From Candidatus Saccharimonadota bacterium (GTDB lineage Bacteria; Patescibacteriota; Saccharimonadia; Saccharimonadales; SZUA-47), in NCBI GenBank assembly GCA_020428465.1, contig JAGQMY010000005.1:1-43169 (forward strand): DNA of 43,169 bases, read 5' to 3'. The notes beneath the pieces are model-generated. The model was not told where the DNA came from and made no database searches. It saw only the letters and a list, made by a program, of their open reading frames with translations. The position numbers were made by a program, and so were the translations under genes. Positions 18,943-24,899 of this stretch are shown here, in pieces (within the stretch, counting starts at the first letter, position 1; each line of letters opens with the position of its first letter).

Positions 18943-19374
18943 ATGAGCGTTAAGGAAGAAAACGGATTCAGTCTAGTTGAAATAATGCTTTCTATTGTTC
19001 TAGCTTCAGTAGCGCTGTATGTGGGCACCTTGTTATTAGCTCTCGGTAATCAAGTAAGTTCAAGGACAGAGGCATTACTGGCTGCAAATTCTGCAGCTTT
19101 TTCTAAAGTTCAGGAATACGAAAATAAATCTTTTGATAACATACCAATCGGAATCGACTCGAACGAATACGAAGTTGAAGATTTTTCTTCGACTTTACCA
19201 ACTATAACTGGTGGTTTCATTAAATCTGGAACTGCAAAAGTCTATACTCAATACGCAAACGAATATACCGCGTCACTAATAAAGATGACTGTAAAAATAG
19301 ACTTTAAATATGGCAACAGAGATAGGCTTATTGAATATGCTACATATATTCAACTAGGGGGTGTAGGTAGATGA
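18943..19374 (+). CDS. Type IV minor pilin, PilV/GspI-like
   Basis: 143 residues. The prepilin peptidase site is ENG|FSLVE with Gly8 before the cut and Glu at +5. A 20-residue hydrophobic helix (IMLSIVLASVALYVGTLLLA) follows, then a small C-terminal domain. The prepilin peptidase (not in the window) would remove the short leader and methylate Phe. It is first of three overlapping genes whose order corresponds to GspI-GspJ-GspK or PilV-PilW-PilX, the initiation complex that primes pilus assembly and caps the fibre. The stop overlaps the next start by 4 bases. Confidence 0.88.
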   Translation: MSVKEENGFSLVEIMLSIVLASVALYVGTLLLALGNQVSSRTEALLAANSAAFSKVQEYENKSFDNIPIGIDSNEYEVEDFSSTLPTITGGFIKSGTAKVYTQYANEYTASLIKMTVKIDFKYGNRDRLIEYATYIQLGGVGR

Positions 19375-20117
19375 AGCAGTCGATCAATTTTAAAATTAAT
19401 GCACTCAATGCAGGCTTTACTATTCTAGAAATACTAATAGCTTTACCTATTGCTTCTATGTTGTCGCTGGTTTTAGCTACAACTATGTTCAATCAATATG
19501 GTCAGCTGTTACAGAGTTCGGCGCACGCTCGACTCAGAATGGAGGGTGAAATTCTATTATTGTCTCTAGAAGACGAGCTTTTATTTGCTACTGACTTCGC
19601 GAATGGTATGTCTAGCGATCTTACAGACAATAACGCCCCCTCTGGTGGATGGACTTATAATACAGCGCCAACAGATACACTTATAGTATACGAAACAGCG
19701 CTGACTGCCGATAGACGTGACCCGAATAGGGACTTTGTCTATAAGAAGTCAGGAAACTGTAGTAGTTCATATAATATCGCTATAGATAATTTAATGTACT
19801 TTACGACAAAAAATTCTAACGATAACTACCGGAGTTTATTCAGAAGAACAATAGTACCGCAATATGCAACATGTGGAACTAATTATAAAACCCAAACTTG
19901 TCCGTCGAGCAATGTTGCGTCTCCGTGTCAGGGCACCGACTCATTGCTCTCGGATAAAGTAGTAGATTTTCAGATTGAGTATTACGATGAGAATAATGTA
20001 GCATTAACAAGTCCGGGGAACTCTGAATTAGTAAAACTAACATTGACTTTAGGAGAAAAAATATACGGCAAGGACGTTAATGTCGCAACAAATATAACAA
20101 TGAAGAAAGTTAACTGA
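19371..20117 (+). CDS. Type IV minor pilin, PilW/GspJ-like
   Basis: 248 residues. The class III signal is NAG|FTILE (Gly15, Phe16, Glu20), followed by a hydrophobic helix IALPIASMLSLVLATTMF. The C-terminal domain carries several Cys (SGNCSSS, YATCGTN, TQTCPSS, ASPCQGTD) likely to form disulfides outside the cell. Start ATG overlaps the previous stop (ATGA), and its last base is the first of the following gene. Size and position match PilW/GspJ. The function is inferred from the signal and the operon; the globular domain itself is not a family I recognise. Confidence 0.86.
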   Translation: MKQSINFKINALNAGFTILEILIALPIASMLSLVLATTMFNQYGQLLQSSAHARLRMEGEILLLSLEDELLFATDFANGMSSDLTDNNAPSGGWTYNTAPTDTLIVYETALTADRRDPNRDFVYKKSGNCSSSYNIAIDNLMYFTTKNSNDNYRSLFRRTIVPQYATCGTNYKTQTCPSSNVASPCQGTDSLLSDKVVDFQIEYYDENNVALTSPGNSELVKLTLTLGEKIYGKDVNVATNITMKKVN

Positions 20118-21868
20118 TGATAAAAATTAATAAACAAACAGGTTTTGCTATGCCGATGATCCTAACATTCATCATACTTTTATCGGTAGTAGGTATTGCA
20201 ATTGTCCAGAATGTAACACAAACAAATGGATCAGCAGTATTGCATTCACAAGTTCAAATTGCTCACATAGCAAGTAAGGCCGCAATTGACTATGCCGAAG
20301 AACAGTTTGAGCTAAACTCATCTTATAGTGGTACCCCTGAGCAAGATTTATTCGTTAATGATTTCTACAGAGCAACAATAGAAGTCGATGTTTTATATGA
20401 TCAGTCATCTACAGCTAAAAGGGTGCAGGGGATCGGCAGAGTTTACATACCCGAAACATCATCAAGTGCAAAAGTGGTTAGAGATATAAAGTCTACAATA
20501 ATAAGAAACGGTGAAGTTATAATAACAGCTGGTCAGGTAGATCCTGCAACCTATAACCCACTTCTTTGGTTAGACGCAAATGAGCCAGATAGTCTTTATA
20601 AAACAGTTGTTTCTCCGAACACACAGACGATTAATGCTTTAGCGGGTTCTGCTTATGGAGATGTAGTGGAGGAGAGAGGTTCGAATGCTTCAAGTAGTAA
20701 AGGCTCCTTACTATTTGGAGATTCTGACTTGGAAATGTCGTATGATGGTAATACAAAAGGTAACCAAACAATAGGATTGAGATTCAGATCAATACAAACA
20801 CCAAAGAATGCGGTAATACAAAATGCCTATATTCAATTTCAGGCCGATGAAACAAAAACAGCAGGAGTTGTGCAATTTGAAGTTTACGGTGTGGCATCTG
20901 ACGACCCAGGATCATGGAGCGGTAACTACGCAGTTGCAAACGCTACTAAAACATCAACCATATTAGACTGGCAACCTCCAAATTGGAACTCGGTTGGTTC
21001 GAATGGTGTGAATGAACGATTAGACGTAACGTCAATTGTACAAGAATTAGTGAATAGATCTGGTTGGAATCCTAATAATGCCATGGCGTTTGGAATAAAA
21101 TGGAAGACTGGAAGTGGGGTTCGTACAGCTGAAAGCGGTACCTCAAGTGGTGGTCCACAATTGTTCATTCAGTGGGATAGTGCATCAACTGCATCTCCAG
21201 CTGAATCTGACGGAGATAATGTTGTTGCTTGGTATGACAAATCAGGAAACAACAACGACGCACTATCTGCATACGGTACATCTCCAATCCTAAAAATTAA
21301 TCAAATTAACGGATTGAATGCAGTTAGGTTTTCATCTAACGGCAATCTTTTATCTAGCATTACAAGTAATACCGCAAGAGAACTTACCGTTTTCATGATT
21401 ATGGCGCCTAATACAAGTTCATCAACGGATGCCAGGTTTATAAGTGTGATGAGTTCAACTCAGAATTCAGACAACTCTTCAAGTGGAATAATTCCACTTA
21501 TGAAGAGTGGGTCTACAACAACACTCAAGCAATATTTTAATGGTTCTTCAGGTAGATCCCTTAGCTCGACAATTGACGGTAACTGGTCCGAAATTATGAG
21601 CAGAACAAGTTACTCAGATAATGAATGGCTAATAACTAACAGCACAAATCAGAGCTCAGGGAACAGCTTTAGCCCTAATTTTAATTTTGATCAAATTTAT
21701 ATAGGCGGAACAAGAAGTGGAAGTACTGGAGCATATTACGCAAACGCTGACATTGCCGAAATTATTATCTATGATAAAAAGCTAACATGTCTTGAGACTC
21801 AAGGTGTAGAGAATTATCTAGAAGCTAAATACGGATTGTCATACTCGGACAAATCACCGTGTAATTAA
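20117..21868 (+). CDS. PilX/GspK-like minor pilin with LamG-type domain interrupted by a second beta domain; probable tip adhesin
   Basis: 583 residues. The N-terminus QTG|FAMPMILTFIILLSVVGIAI is a prepilin signal with Gly9 and Phe10 but without Glu at +5, as in GspK, the subunit at the pseudopilus tip. A pilin-like part runs to about 140. A LamG/concanavalin-like domain begins at 147 (NPLLWLDANEPDSL) but resumes only at about 364 (DGDNVVAWYDKSGNNNDA) and runs to about 575. The 180-355 gap holds a separate beta domain (VEERGSN, SYDGNTKGNQTIGLRFRSI, LDVTSIVQELVNRSGW, GVRTAES) of a type found in secreted carbohydrate-active proteins. Such a domain on a tip subunit suggests carbohydrate or host-surface binding (inference). 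Confidence 0.82.
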   Translation: MIKINKQTGFAMPMILTFIILLSVVGIAIVQNVTQTNGSAVLHSQVQIAHIASKAAIDYAEEQFELNSSYSGTPEQDLFVNDFYRATIEVDVLYDQSSTAKRVQGIGRVYIPETSSSAKVVRDIKSTIIRNGEVIITAGQVDPATYNPLLWLDANEPDSLYKTVVSPNTQTINALAGSAYGDVVEERGSNASSSKGSLLFGDSDLEMSYDGNTKGNQTIGLRFRSIQTPKNAVIQNAYIQFQADETKTAGVVQFEVYGVASDDPGSWSGNYAVANATKTSTILDWQPPNWNSVGSNGVNERLDVTSIVQELVNRSGWNPNNAMAFGIKWKTGSGVRTAESGTSSGGPQLFIQWDSASTASPAESDGDNVVAWYDKSGNNNDALSAYGTSPILKINQINGLNAVRFSSNGNLLSSITSNTARELTVFMIMAPNTSSSTDARFISVMSSTQNSDNSSSGIIPLMKSGSTTTLKQYFNGSSGRSLSSTIDGNWSEIMSRTSYSDNEWLITNSTNQSSGNSFSPNFNFDQIYIGGTRSGSTGAYYANADIAEIIIYDKKLTCLETQGVENYLEAKYGLSYSDKSPCN

Positions 21869-21889
21869 TATAGACTTTATAGGTCAATA

Positions 21890-21898
21890 TGTTATATT
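21890..21898 (+). promoter_or_regulatory. Extended -10 promoter of the heliorhodopsin gene
   Basis: TGTTATATT (TG 21890-21891, TATATT 21893-21898) ends 7 nt before ATG 21906. This supports the upstream ATG, and therefore the lysine-rich tail, as part of the protein. Confidence 0.5.
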
Positions 21899-21905
21899 AA
21901 CTCAT

Positions 21906-22865
21906 ATGGCAACGACTAAGAAATCAACTACAACTAAATCAAAAACAGCAAAAAAATCATCAACTAAGAAGCAACCAACCAAGAAGTCTGTAGCTAGCGC
22001 ATCAGTAAAAGCGAGCTCAACTAAGGCTGTTGCGAAAAAAGCGAGTTCAGTTAAAACTTCAGTACCAAAGAAAAGTTCTAAAAAAGGCCCGATGAGCGTA
22101 ATGCAAAAACTAAATGTTTGGAACTGGGTTATGGCCGGTTTGCACACTGCACAGGGAATAGCCGTAATATTATTGAGCCAAAACAAACTATTTCCGGTCA
22201 CAACAAACTATCTCACGGTCGACACAATTAAAGATTTAAACGACGCCCCAACATTGGTTTCAGCAACGAGACATTTATTTGATGTAAGATTAGCTTATCT
22301 TGTAGCAGCATTCTTTTTCATGAGTGCGATTGCTCATTTAGTAATTGCGACAGTTTATCGTAAGCGTTACGAAAGCGATCTGAACAATGGCATAAATAAA
22401 GCTCGATGGTTTGAGTACGGTGTTAGTGCGAGCACTATGATGTTGGCTATATCAATGCTAGCAGGTGTATCAGATATATCAACATTAGTTCTAATATTTG
22501 GTTCAACTGCAGTCATGAACTTGATGGGATTGATGATGGAAGTTCATAATCAAACAACAAAGAAAACAGATTGGTTAAGTTTCATAATCGGTACCAAATC
22601 AGGATTATTGCCCTGGATAAGTGTTGGACTGTATCTATGGGGTGCAAATCAATATGGCGATGGTAAAATCCCGACATTTGTATATTGGATATACGGAAGT
22701 ATGTTCGTATTCTTCAGTAGTTTCGCTGTAAATATGTGGCTTCAGTACAAAAAGAAAGGCAAGTGGTCTAATTATCTATATGGCGAAAGAGCCTATATGA
22801 TTTTGAGCTTGGTTGCTAAATCATTGCTAGCTTGGCAAGTATTCGCTGGCACCCTCCGACTATAA
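21906..22865 (+). CDS. Heliorhodopsin with a lysine-rich N-terminal tail
   Basis: 319 residues. Residues 67-319 match heliorhodopsin over the whole length, including AGLHTAQG, ARWFEYGVSAS, GKWSNYLYGERAY and SLVAKSLLAWQVFAGTL. Aligned from memory with the reference protein 48C12, Lys305 is the retinal Schiff-base lysine (K241), Glu170 the counterion (E107), and His80 and His144 the conserved histidines (H23, H80). All are present, so a retinal-binding photoreceptor is expected. Heliorhodopsins are not proton pumps in the cases studied and are inverted, with the N-terminus in the cytoplasm. Residues 1-60 are an added tail with 19 Lys and no acidic residue, rich in Ser, Thr and Ala, resembling histone H1-type tails. 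No retinal synthesis gene is in the window. The gene stands alone, with its own promoter and a strong terminator. Confidence 0.93.
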   Translation: MATTKKSTTTKSKTAKKSSTKKQPTKKSVASASVKASSTKAVAKKASSVKTSVPKKSSKKGPMSVMQKLNVWNWVMAGLHTAQGIAVILLSQNKLFPVTTNYLTVDTIKDLNDAPTLVSATRHLFDVRLAYLVAAFFFMSAIAHLVIATVYRKRYESDLNNGINKARWFEYGVSASTMMLAISMLAGVSDISTLVLIFGSTAVMNLMGLMMEVHNQTTKKTDWLSFIIGTKSGLLPWISVGLYLWGANQYGDGKIPTFVYWIYGSMFVFFSSFAVNMWLQYKKKGKWSNYLYGERAYMILSLVAKSLLAWQVFAGTLRL

Positions 22866-22885
22866 CTCGATAAGCTATTAGCTTT

Positions 22886-22912
22886 AAACTCCCTCATCTG
22901 AGGGAGTTTTTT
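22886..22912 (+). terminator. Strong intrinsic terminator after the heliorhodopsin gene
   Basis: AAACTCCCTC (22886-22895) pairs perfectly with GAGGGAGTTT (22900-22909) around an ATCT loop, and the T-run continues to 22912. Ten base pairs with a T tract. Confidence 0.92.
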
Positions 22913-22920
22913 GATAGAAT
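22912..22920 (+). promoter_or_regulatory. Extended -10 promoter of the RlmD-like gene
   Basis: TGATAGAAT: TG at 22912-22913, TAGAAT at 22915-22920, ending 6 nt before the GTG at 22927. The box begins on the last base of the preceding terminator. Confidence 0.5.
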
Positions 22921-22926
22921 TAATTA

Positions 22927-24210
22927 GTGAGTAAAAAAAGTACACTTATACTAGATAATGTAAAAGTTGATAAATTAGTTCATGGTGGACAGGGAATAGC
23001 TGAAGCTCAGGATGGTCGTAAGATATTTCTATGGGGCGGGCTACCTGGTGAAATAGTTAATGTGCGTGTTACCAAGAAAAAACGGAGTTACTTTGAAGGT
23101 ATCGTAACAGACGTTATCAGTCGGTCTACGGACAGAATTGAGCCAGTAGAACCTGAGGTTTATTTATCGTCAAGCCCATGGCAAATAATGTCATTAAATG
23201 CCGAGAACAATGCAAAACAAGCAATATTAGAAGAAACATTTAGTCGTGAAGGTGTTGATATTTACAAATGGGGTAATTTTTCCTTTGCTGGTAACGAATA
23301 TGGATACCGAAACAAAGTAGAACTAGGCTTCTGGGGTGATGATAGGGGAGTTCATTACGCTAGTTATGTGCGAGGGACGCACGGTAAACAGATTATTACA
23401 CGTAATGCCCTTGCAAATGAATCGATTAATTCTGTTTTAGATGATTTTTTAAAGTCATTGAATACTTTCATATATAAAAACAAATATAGAGCAGGTGATT
23501 TTAAAACAGTTATAATTCGGTCGAATAAAAAGGGTGAAGTAGTGGCAGCATTATTTACTAAATTAGATGCTGACTTCAGTCAATTCATTAAACCAGCTAA
23601 CTTAAAAGGACTTATAATCTGTTACTCTAACCCAAAGAGTCCCGCTAGCGTAAGGACAAAAGACCTTTATATCAACGGTGATATAACTCTAACAGATACG
23701 TTAATGGGCACAAATATCACATATGACGTATTTTCGTTTTTTCAAGTAAATTTGCCAATATTTGAGCAGGTCTTAGGTAGAATTGATTACTTTTCTGGAG
23801 GAATACCGAAGATCGATATGTATTCAGGCGTGGGAGCTATAGGAATACCGATAGGTATGACCGACATTTTGGTAGAATCCGATGAAAACAATGTCAAAAT
23901 GGCTAAAATGAACGCGTCGAATCTACCGATAAAAGTAGTTCATGCGACTAGTGAATCTGCACTCGAGTACATTGATGATAAACACTGCGTTATAGTTGAT
24001 CCGCCGAGGGTGGGGCTTCATAAAGATTTAGCCAATAAGTTATTAGAAGTTTTACCACCACAAATTGCGTACTTAAGTTGCAATCCTAGCACACAGGCTA
24101 GGGATGTAGCCCTGCTTCAAGATAGGTACAAAATACGCGCAATTGAGGGATATAATTTCTTCCCTCGCACGCCACATATAGAAAGTCTGGTAGTATTAGA
24201 AAAGAAATGA
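22927..24210 (+). CDS. RlmD/TrmA-family RNA uracil-C5 methyltransferase without Fe-S cluster cysteines
   Basis: 427 residues from GTG 22927. An N-terminal TRAM RNA-binding domain (about 1-65, VDKLVHGGQGIA, GLPGEIVNVRVTKKKRSYFEG) is followed by the Rossmann SAM domain with FFQVNLPIFEQVL, DMYSGVGAIGIPI, DPPRVGL and the catalytic Cys385 in YLSCNPST. Relatives convert specific uridines in 23S rRNA or tRNA to 5-methyluridine. The region where RlmD has the 4Fe-4S cysteines reads YLSSSPWQIMSL (79-90), so the cluster is absent. The exact RNA target cannot be told from sequence. It overlaps rsmE by 4 bases. Confidence 0.9.
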   Translation: MSKKSTLILDNVKVDKLVHGGQGIAEAQDGRKIFLWGGLPGEIVNVRVTKKKRSYFEGIVTDVISRSTDRIEPVEPEVYLSSSPWQIMSLNAENNAKQAILEETFSREGVDIYKWGNFSFAGNEYGYRNKVELGFWGDDRGVHYASYVRGTHGKQIITRNALANESINSVLDDFLKSLNTFIYKNKYRAGDFKTVIIRSNKKGEVVAALFTKLDADFSQFIKPANLKGLIICYSNPKSPASVRTKDLYINGDITLTDTLMGTNITYDVFSFFQVNLPIFEQVLGRIDYFSGGIPKIDMYSGVGAIGIPIGMTDILVESDENNVKMAKMNASNLPIKVVHATSESALEYIDDKHCVIVDPPRVGLHKDLANKLLEVLPPQIAYLSCNPSTQARDVALLQDRYKIRAIEGYNFFPRTPHIESLVVLEKK

Positions 24211-24899
24211 AACTGCATAGATATTATTTACCTAATACAGATCTCACGCATGATTTTTGGATGGATGATGCAAAATTATTCCATCAATGGACAAGAGTCT
24301 TGCGATACGAGGTAGGCAGGGAGGTTGAGCTTTTCAATGACAAGCAAGAAGACAGGTTGTACAAAATAACTAAAATCGGGAACAACGCCGTACATCTGGA
24401 ATTGATAACACAGCTAGAACCTGTCGAACCTGAAAAAGAAATGTATCTATGTTTTGCCTTGCTTAAGAAAGACAAAGTGGAATGGGTATTACAGAAGGGC
24501 ACCGAACTAGGTGTACGACATTTTGTACCAATGTTAACCGATCGGACAGAGAAAACAGGTTTTGATATAGAGCGTGCAGAGAAGATCGTGATCGAAGCAA
24601 GCGAACAGTGTGGACGATCTGACATCCCGAGAGTCCGCGAACCGCTTAAATTACAAACAATTATTGAGGAACTTAAGGAAAAATCTGAATTATTTGTAGC
24701 TGAGCAAGGCTCGCCTCATTTATCTTTTATTAATTCACAATCCTCAAAACCGCGCGCAGTTTTGATAGGCCCCGAAGGTGGTTGGTCCGATAATGAAAAA
24801 ATGTTTTTCGAAGAAAATAAACTAGAATTCATAACACTAAGCAAATTTACTCTACGAGCTGAAACCGCCTGCATTGTCGCGTCTTCGTTGCTACAATGA
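24207..24899 (+). CDS. rsmE: 16S rRNA m3U1498 methyltransferase RsmE
   Basis: A 230-residue SPOUT-class methyltransferase. The N-terminal PUA-like part (HRYYLPN, HQWTRVLRYEVGREVELFND) and the C-terminal knot with LIGPEGGWSDNE and LSKFTLRAETACIVASSLL are characteristic. It methylates N3 of U1498 in the decoding region of 16S rRNA. Start ATG overlaps the stop of the preceding methyltransferase gene (ATGA), so two RNA methyltransferases are translated as a pair. Length is close to the usual 240. Confidence 0.94.
   Translation: MKLHRYYLPNTDLTHDFWMDDAKLFHQWTRVLRYEVGREVELFNDKQEDRLYKITKIGNNAVHLELITQLEPVEPEKEMYLCFALLKKDKVEWVLQKGTELGVRHFVPMLTDRTEKTGFDIERAEKIVIEASEQCGRSDIPRVREPLKLQTIIEELKEKSELFVAEQGSPHLSFINSQSSKPRAVLIGPEGGWSDNEKMFFEENKLEFITLSKFTLRAETACIVASSLLQ
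24889..24897 (+). promoter_or_regulatory. Extended -10 promoter, leaderless type, inside the end of rsmE
   Basis: TGCTACAAT (TG 24889-24890, TACAAT 24892-24897) ends 6 nt before ATG 24904 and overlaps the last codons of rsmE. Confidence 0.5.

Follow-up and report, generated by a model that had tools for sequence, protein, structure and literature searches.

The heliorhodopsin gene, its transcript and its neighbours

The window (the whole stretch of DNA that was analysed, 43,169 nucleotides) contains an ATG-initiated open reading frame at 21906–22865 (+) that codes, over 319 residues, for a canonical heliorhodopsin (HeR) preceded by a polycationic N-terminal tail. The core (residues 67–319; 22104–22862, +), with seven transmembrane (TM) helices and a β-hairpin in ECL1, is defined by Pfam, by matches to solved structures and by an AlphaFold2 model. 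Residues 69–317 cover the Pfam Heliorhodopsin profile (PF18761) from position 1 to 242 of 242 (E = 1.3e-90), and solved heliorhodopsins align with the protein from residue 66/67 to 318 (6is6, E = 5.8e-69). The core of the AlphaFold2 model, which was built from a 12-sequence alignment, consists mostly of confident helices, and the seven helices and the ECL1 β-strands are all present. The retinal-site residues H80, H144, E170, S301 and K305 are likewise complete; alignment with relatives places Glu170 at the counterion position in TM3 (22413–22415, +) and Lys305, the Schiff-base lysine, in the SLVAK motif of TM7 (22818–22820, +). The SxxxK retinal lysine and the Glu counterion that characterize an HeR are thus found in the window protein, but not in the syntenic sequence L111 and other tailed relatives (see below). 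The claim in a preliminary description of this DNA that the gene encodes a complete heliorhodopsin is borne out by the Pfam match over the core and by the intact H80, H144, E170 and K305.

The protein resembles 48C12 HeR (6su3 and 6uh3) and TaHeR (6is6) in core residues 66/67–318, the retinal lysine, the Glu counterion, the two histidines and the predicted ECL1 hairpin. It differs in its polycationic extension, which is left uncovered by alignments that start at residue 66/67. An imperfect 20-bp tandem duplication lies inside the coding sequence at 22182–22220, in the region of the first extracellular loop. A profile search of the window's genome for a divergent HeR paralogue returned the 21906–22865 gene alone. 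A search of the same genome for a type-1 rhodopsin gave no match, as did its control search, and no Rfam element was found at the ends of the HeR gene within 21500–23300.

Downstream of the HeR gene are genes for a TRAM-type RNA methyltransferase (22927–24210) and an RsmE-like protein (24207–24899), both named by inspection, which are conserved and mark a syntenic locus (22927–24899, +). With genes clustered by similarity and named by inspection, the upstream genes at the conserved locus are LysRS-, GreA-, ProRS-, MsrA- or pilin-like; the downstream genes, also named by inspection, are TRAM methyltransferase-, RsmE-, PD-(D/E)XK-, SerRS- and HPF-like. Immediately before the HeR gene in the window lie three pilin-like genes (18943–21868) that are conserved in the family; the last of them codes for 583 residues, with a long unclassified region. 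In other families this position is mostly taken by an msrA-like gene.

A promoter, recognized from the sequence and by comparison with relatives, immediately precedes the tail (21871–21898, +). It consists of a −35-like TAGACT (21871–21876), a 16-nt spacer and an extended −10 element TGTTATATT (21890–21898), in which the −10 hexamer TATATT (21893–21898), with its extended TG, is separated from the tail ATG by a gap of 7 nt. The extended −10 element (TGNTANNNT) begins 12–13 nt upstream of the tail ATG in the window and most tailed homologues, in agreement with the earlier placement of a promoter directly before this codon; L118, L119 and L124 instead have a Shine–Dalgarno-like motif ahead of the same Met. 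The element occurs at −12/−13 in 34 of 372 sampled genes of the window's genome, compared with a few genes that have it at other positions, which indicates that leaderless starts are a regular class in this genome. The gene is followed by an intrinsic terminator (22886–22912, +) with a 10-bp stem, a 4-nt loop and a T-run (fold of −15.5 kcal/mol, z = −3.9; an equally stable fold in none of 200 shuffles), and the strength of this terminator suggests a monocistronic gene. The HeR transcript is therefore probably leaderless, starting at the tail ATG, and monocistronic.

The junction between tail and core (22092–22103, +) holds two in-frame ATGs, Met63 and Met66, which could be taken to mean that the tail is untranslated and that synthesis starts at one of them. 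Both Met residues are peculiar to the window, and internal starts are not conserved: in the sister sequences L002–L006 and L111 the stretch from the first Met to TM1 is free of further ATG, GTG and TTG codons, so that any shorter product would be missing part of that helix. In 22 homologous tails the tail frame contains no stop, against 53 and 129 in the two remaining sense frames, and the promoter adjoins the tail ATG in most homologues. Initiation at Met63 or Met66 was rejected, and an untranslated tail is very improbable. As proposed previously, the tail is translated from its own upstream ATG, to judge by these comparisons, and the same-family homologues at the locus do not begin near Met63/Met66.

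Composition and conservation of the tail

The tail (residues 1–62; 21906–22091, +) is polycationic and predicted to be disordered, on the basis of its composition, the conservation of its frame and the AlphaFold2 model, in which the pLDDT is below 50 across residues 1–61, consistent with disorder. Its first 60 residues include 19 Lys and are devoid of Arg, Asp and Glu, which confirms the count given in the preliminary description. The mean composition of 22 homologous tails is 27% Lys, 20% Thr, 18% Ala and 13% Ser, with less than 5% aromatic residues, Ile, Leu and Met; Val is the exception to this near absence of aliphatic and aromatic residues. The histone H1 C-terminal domain is Lys/Ala-rich and disordered, with Lys accompanied by Ala, Ser, Thr and Pro and almost no acidic or aromatic residues. 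The window tail shares this composition with H1 and with the C-terminal tail of bS20 from the same genome, but it sits on the N-terminus of a seven-TM protein and is accompanied by no globular nucleic-acid-binding domain, and nucleic-acid binding by the tail would be by analogy. The earlier label 'histone-H1-like' is accordingly apt for the composition and does not extend to homology, as no histone H1 or Hc1/HC2 profile in Pfam matched the window protein at E up to 1. The same scan returned Heliorhodopsin, one sub-cutoff match to another family and nothing else.

Tails of this kind are rare in the window's genome. Among 328 ORFs (370 kb), comparable 60-residue segments were found only in the window HeR and in the C-terminal tail of a bS20-like ribosomal protein. 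A looser 40-residue scan, covering 477 ORFs and 509 kb (51% of the genome) and with protein names taken from a reading of the sequences, returned the HeR tail, mostly RNA-binding proteins (ribosomal and RnpA-like) and a few other segments, with no obvious membrane protein among those other segments. A sequence search of the genome with the tail as the query found only itself. The idea that the tail is a module widely used in this genome was set aside, with no second copy by sequence and few similar segments by composition, as was a tandem-repeat artefact, since repeats were looked for in the tail and none were found. The bS20-like protein (L155, 3030–3389, +) carries its Lys/Ala-rich segment, resembling the HeR tail, as an added C-terminal tail. 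In other genomes of the order, three apparently single-TM proteins (L238, L239 and L241) have similar Lys-rich low-complexity N-tails preceding the TM helix, so that the module extends beyond heliorhodopsins.

HeR-like matches were found in 70 of the 100 relatives searched, the genomes of which are largely metagenome assemblies. Every full-length same-family sequence found at the locus carries a tail, of 62–76 residues before the core in L001–L006, 65 in L111 and 59 in L115; both the length and the charge are conserved within the window's family, which answers the question of conservation that had been raised earlier. Most divergent order-level orthologues have tails of 38–80 residues. These sequences, with 22–35% identity to the core, likewise start MATTKKS, MATAKKS or similarly, and the L111 tail starts MATTTKRGA, as does that of L003. 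The tails are alike in composition and not in aligned sequence. Three divergent copies (L186, L187 and L189) are without a tail, and the N-termini of most canonical HeRs in the order comprise 0–25 residues, so that HeR function does not in general depend on a tail.

The divergent sequences are recognizably heliorhodopsins. All 15 that were scanned match the Pfam Heliorhodopsin family, profile–profile comparison is unambiguous (E = 5e-50) and the model of the divergent L113 has solved heliorhodopsins as its first Foldseek matches (6is6, E = 2.0e-11, TM 0.89). In those copies examined, tailed canonical and tailed degenerate HeRs have a common neighbourhood, and the divergent tailed sequences are therefore best read as orthologues. 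A single clade of the family with L111 was not rejected (AU p = 0.50). Parsimony gives nine tail changes across the order; as the branches of the divergent clade are long, one or several gains may fit. Taken together, these comparisons indicate that a charged, low-complexity tail module has been maintained at a syntenic locus and that the window protein is a real, translated and lineage-conserved N-terminally extended variant of heliorhodopsin, as far as sequence can establish this.

N-terminal MORN and zinc-ribbon fusions to HeR are described by Bulzu et al. (2021; PMC8612252), who list ten N-terminal variants (ntv1–10). Znf-HeR and MORN-HeR resemble the window protein in having a lineage-restricted extra module on the cytoplasmic HeR N-terminus, which in their case is proposed to engage partners. 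The window module differs from these in being a disordered polylysine-type tail: it has no Cys, and hence no CxxC-17x-CxxC zinc ribbon as in Znf-HeR (ntv1), and no MORN repeats (PF02493) were detected at the N-terminus in the Pfam scan (E up to 1). Znf-type CxxC motifs are present in the archaeal sequences L054–L056. Neither a Lys-rich HeR tail nor a tailed HeR without the lysine was found described in the open literature, although a Lys-rich class might sit among ntv1–10 (PMC8612252). Open-access texts gave nothing for heliorhodopsin together with 'lysine-rich', an absence that is no proof of novelty, and PMC8612252 alone for heliorhodopsin together with an N-terminal extension.

Retinal-binding residues of the tailed heliorhodopsins

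The window protein and its counterparts in five sister genomes have all the retinal-site residues intact. Of the 28 tailed homologues compared across the order, 12 have no Lys in TM7 residues 298–314, and position 305 is occupied in these by Arg, Gln, Val, Ile, Ala or Thr. The divergent sequences often lack an acidic residue at position 170 and have mostly lost H80 and H144. Many divergent tailed copies retain Lys at position 305, and some carry Asp at position 170; such copies may therefore still bind retinal.

Two sequences from the same locus and the window's family are of particular use here. L111 has the changes K305V, E170G and H80A, and AHGNV replaces HHESK; L115 is tailed and has no TM7 Lys. 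Among the eight same-family syntenic copies, Lys305 is thus lost in two and kept in six, including the window, so that the concern raised previously about loss of this residue in close relatives applies to part of the family and leaves the window protein itself with its lysine. The genome that encodes L115 (G002) has a second copy, L116, which is untailed with an intact retinal site and has none of its neighbours from the conserved locus. The pair in G002, together with L111, shows that tail and chromophore are separable. A paired test of tail against retinal-site loss had too few independent pairs for significance. The most informative result of the analysis is that the tail persists at the same locus where the retinal site has been lost; at the level of sequence, this speaks against a role coupled to light alone.

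Retinal-binding residues are changed or missing in L111 (3262–4188, +), L115 (2847–3776, −) and, order-wide, in L112–L128, L190, L191 and L221–L224, several of which have no TM7 lysine. In entry L116 (3740–4220, +) a small membrane protein comes after the untailed HeR of G002 and by eye resembles DUF2177, a reported neighbour of other heliorhodopsins (PMC11109279).

Surveys of HeRs have made the TM7 lysine a requirement or verified its presence (PMC8612252, PMC9166423 and PMC9601134), and lysine-less tailed descendants would be screened out by such a step. The available portion of PMC9166423 reports 80 heliorhodopsin occurrences in Saccharimonadia, the same broad lineage and protein family as the window HeR; it contains no mention of tails, and the TM7 lysine motif was checked in its candidates.

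Possible roles of the tail

The function of heliorhodopsins is still unsettled. In characterized heliorhodopsins the N-terminus is cytoplasmic; the same is assumed for the window protein, and the positive charge of the tail is consistent with this. We infer, with a probability of about 0.5, that the protein is a disordered polycationic tether on a seven-TM anchor that binds a polyanion, is expressed from a leaderless transcript and has light control as an option. The seven-TM body would serve as the membrane anchor, and the tail, judging from its composition, would hold a polyanion at the inner membrane face by electrostatics. RNA, the ribosome or nucleoid DNA would be likelier targets than lipid, given the few aromatic and hydrophobic residues and the likeness to the tails of RNA-binding ribosomal proteins in this genome. 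Light could modulate tethering in proteins with an intact retinal site, such as that of the window; the persistence of the tail in relatives without this site suggests that its basic role probably needs no light.

Three other readings assume a translated tail. The tail may bind acidic phospholipids of the inner leaflet, as a MARCKS-like polybasic segment that clusters or stabilizes HeR, possibly as oligomers; it is polybasic and membrane-proximal, similar N-tails precede the TM helix in L238, L239 and L241, and for the MORN repeats of other HeRs a function at lipids or in oligomerization has been proposed (PMC8612252). However, the scarcity of aromatic and hydrophobic residues does not favour lipid, membrane pinning would need fewer than 60–80 residues and the composition is common to the tails of RNA-binding proteins, and we regard this reading as unlikely. 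That the tail has no specific partner, being either a low-complexity extension that drifts and is tolerated or a positive-inside signal for topology, would agree with tails that are alike by composition and not by alignment and with the low-complexity N-tails of further membrane proteins in the order. The length and net charge are nevertheless kept across a large divergence, such tails are rare in the window's genome and canonical HeRs with N-termini of 6–8 residues exist, so that insertion needs no tail; this makes a partnerless tail distinctly improbable.

Coupling of the light or retinal state to an intracellular partner, the idea put forward in the preliminary description, would have photo-isomerization alter the exposure of the tail and so release or recruit that partner. 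The intact retinal site of the window and the five sister genomes is compatible with this, published HeRs bind a photolyase (PMC9769723) and an ABC transporter (PMC11109279), and a photolyase-family protein is encoded in the window's genome. A tail is missing, however, from most canonical HeRs whose retinal site is intact, and same-locus orthologues without the retinal lysine keep it, two of them (L111 and L115) in the same family and many in other families. As the main role, light coupling is thus unsupported, and we consider it quite unlikely.

The tether reading can be extended, tentatively and with more doubt than belief, to a scaffold at the conserved locus that in this order, which includes Saccharibacteria, has been turned, perhaps repeatedly, from a photoreceptor into a chromophore-independent membrane anchor for a tail that ties down ribosomes, mRNA or the nucleoid, with the window protein as a dual-function intermediate. 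The HU family (PF00216) was not detected in the window's genome (G000), which is 98.6% complete, with positive controls in nine genomes; this leaves room for an unusual nucleoid organization and proves nothing. A charge switch on the tail operated by a Ser/Thr kinase was also considered and rejected, as there was no Pkinase match in the window's genome (controls positive in 11 of 14), which makes phosphorylation of the tail by Hanks-type kinases unlikely. The same-locus orthologues that have a tail and no chromophore site offer a natural separation of the two functions, in which the target of the tail and its dependence on light are directly testable. The photolyase-family domain of the window's genome lies elsewhere, at G000:C2:4509-4973; a photolyase has been reported to partner a heliorhodopsin from another organism (PMC9769723).
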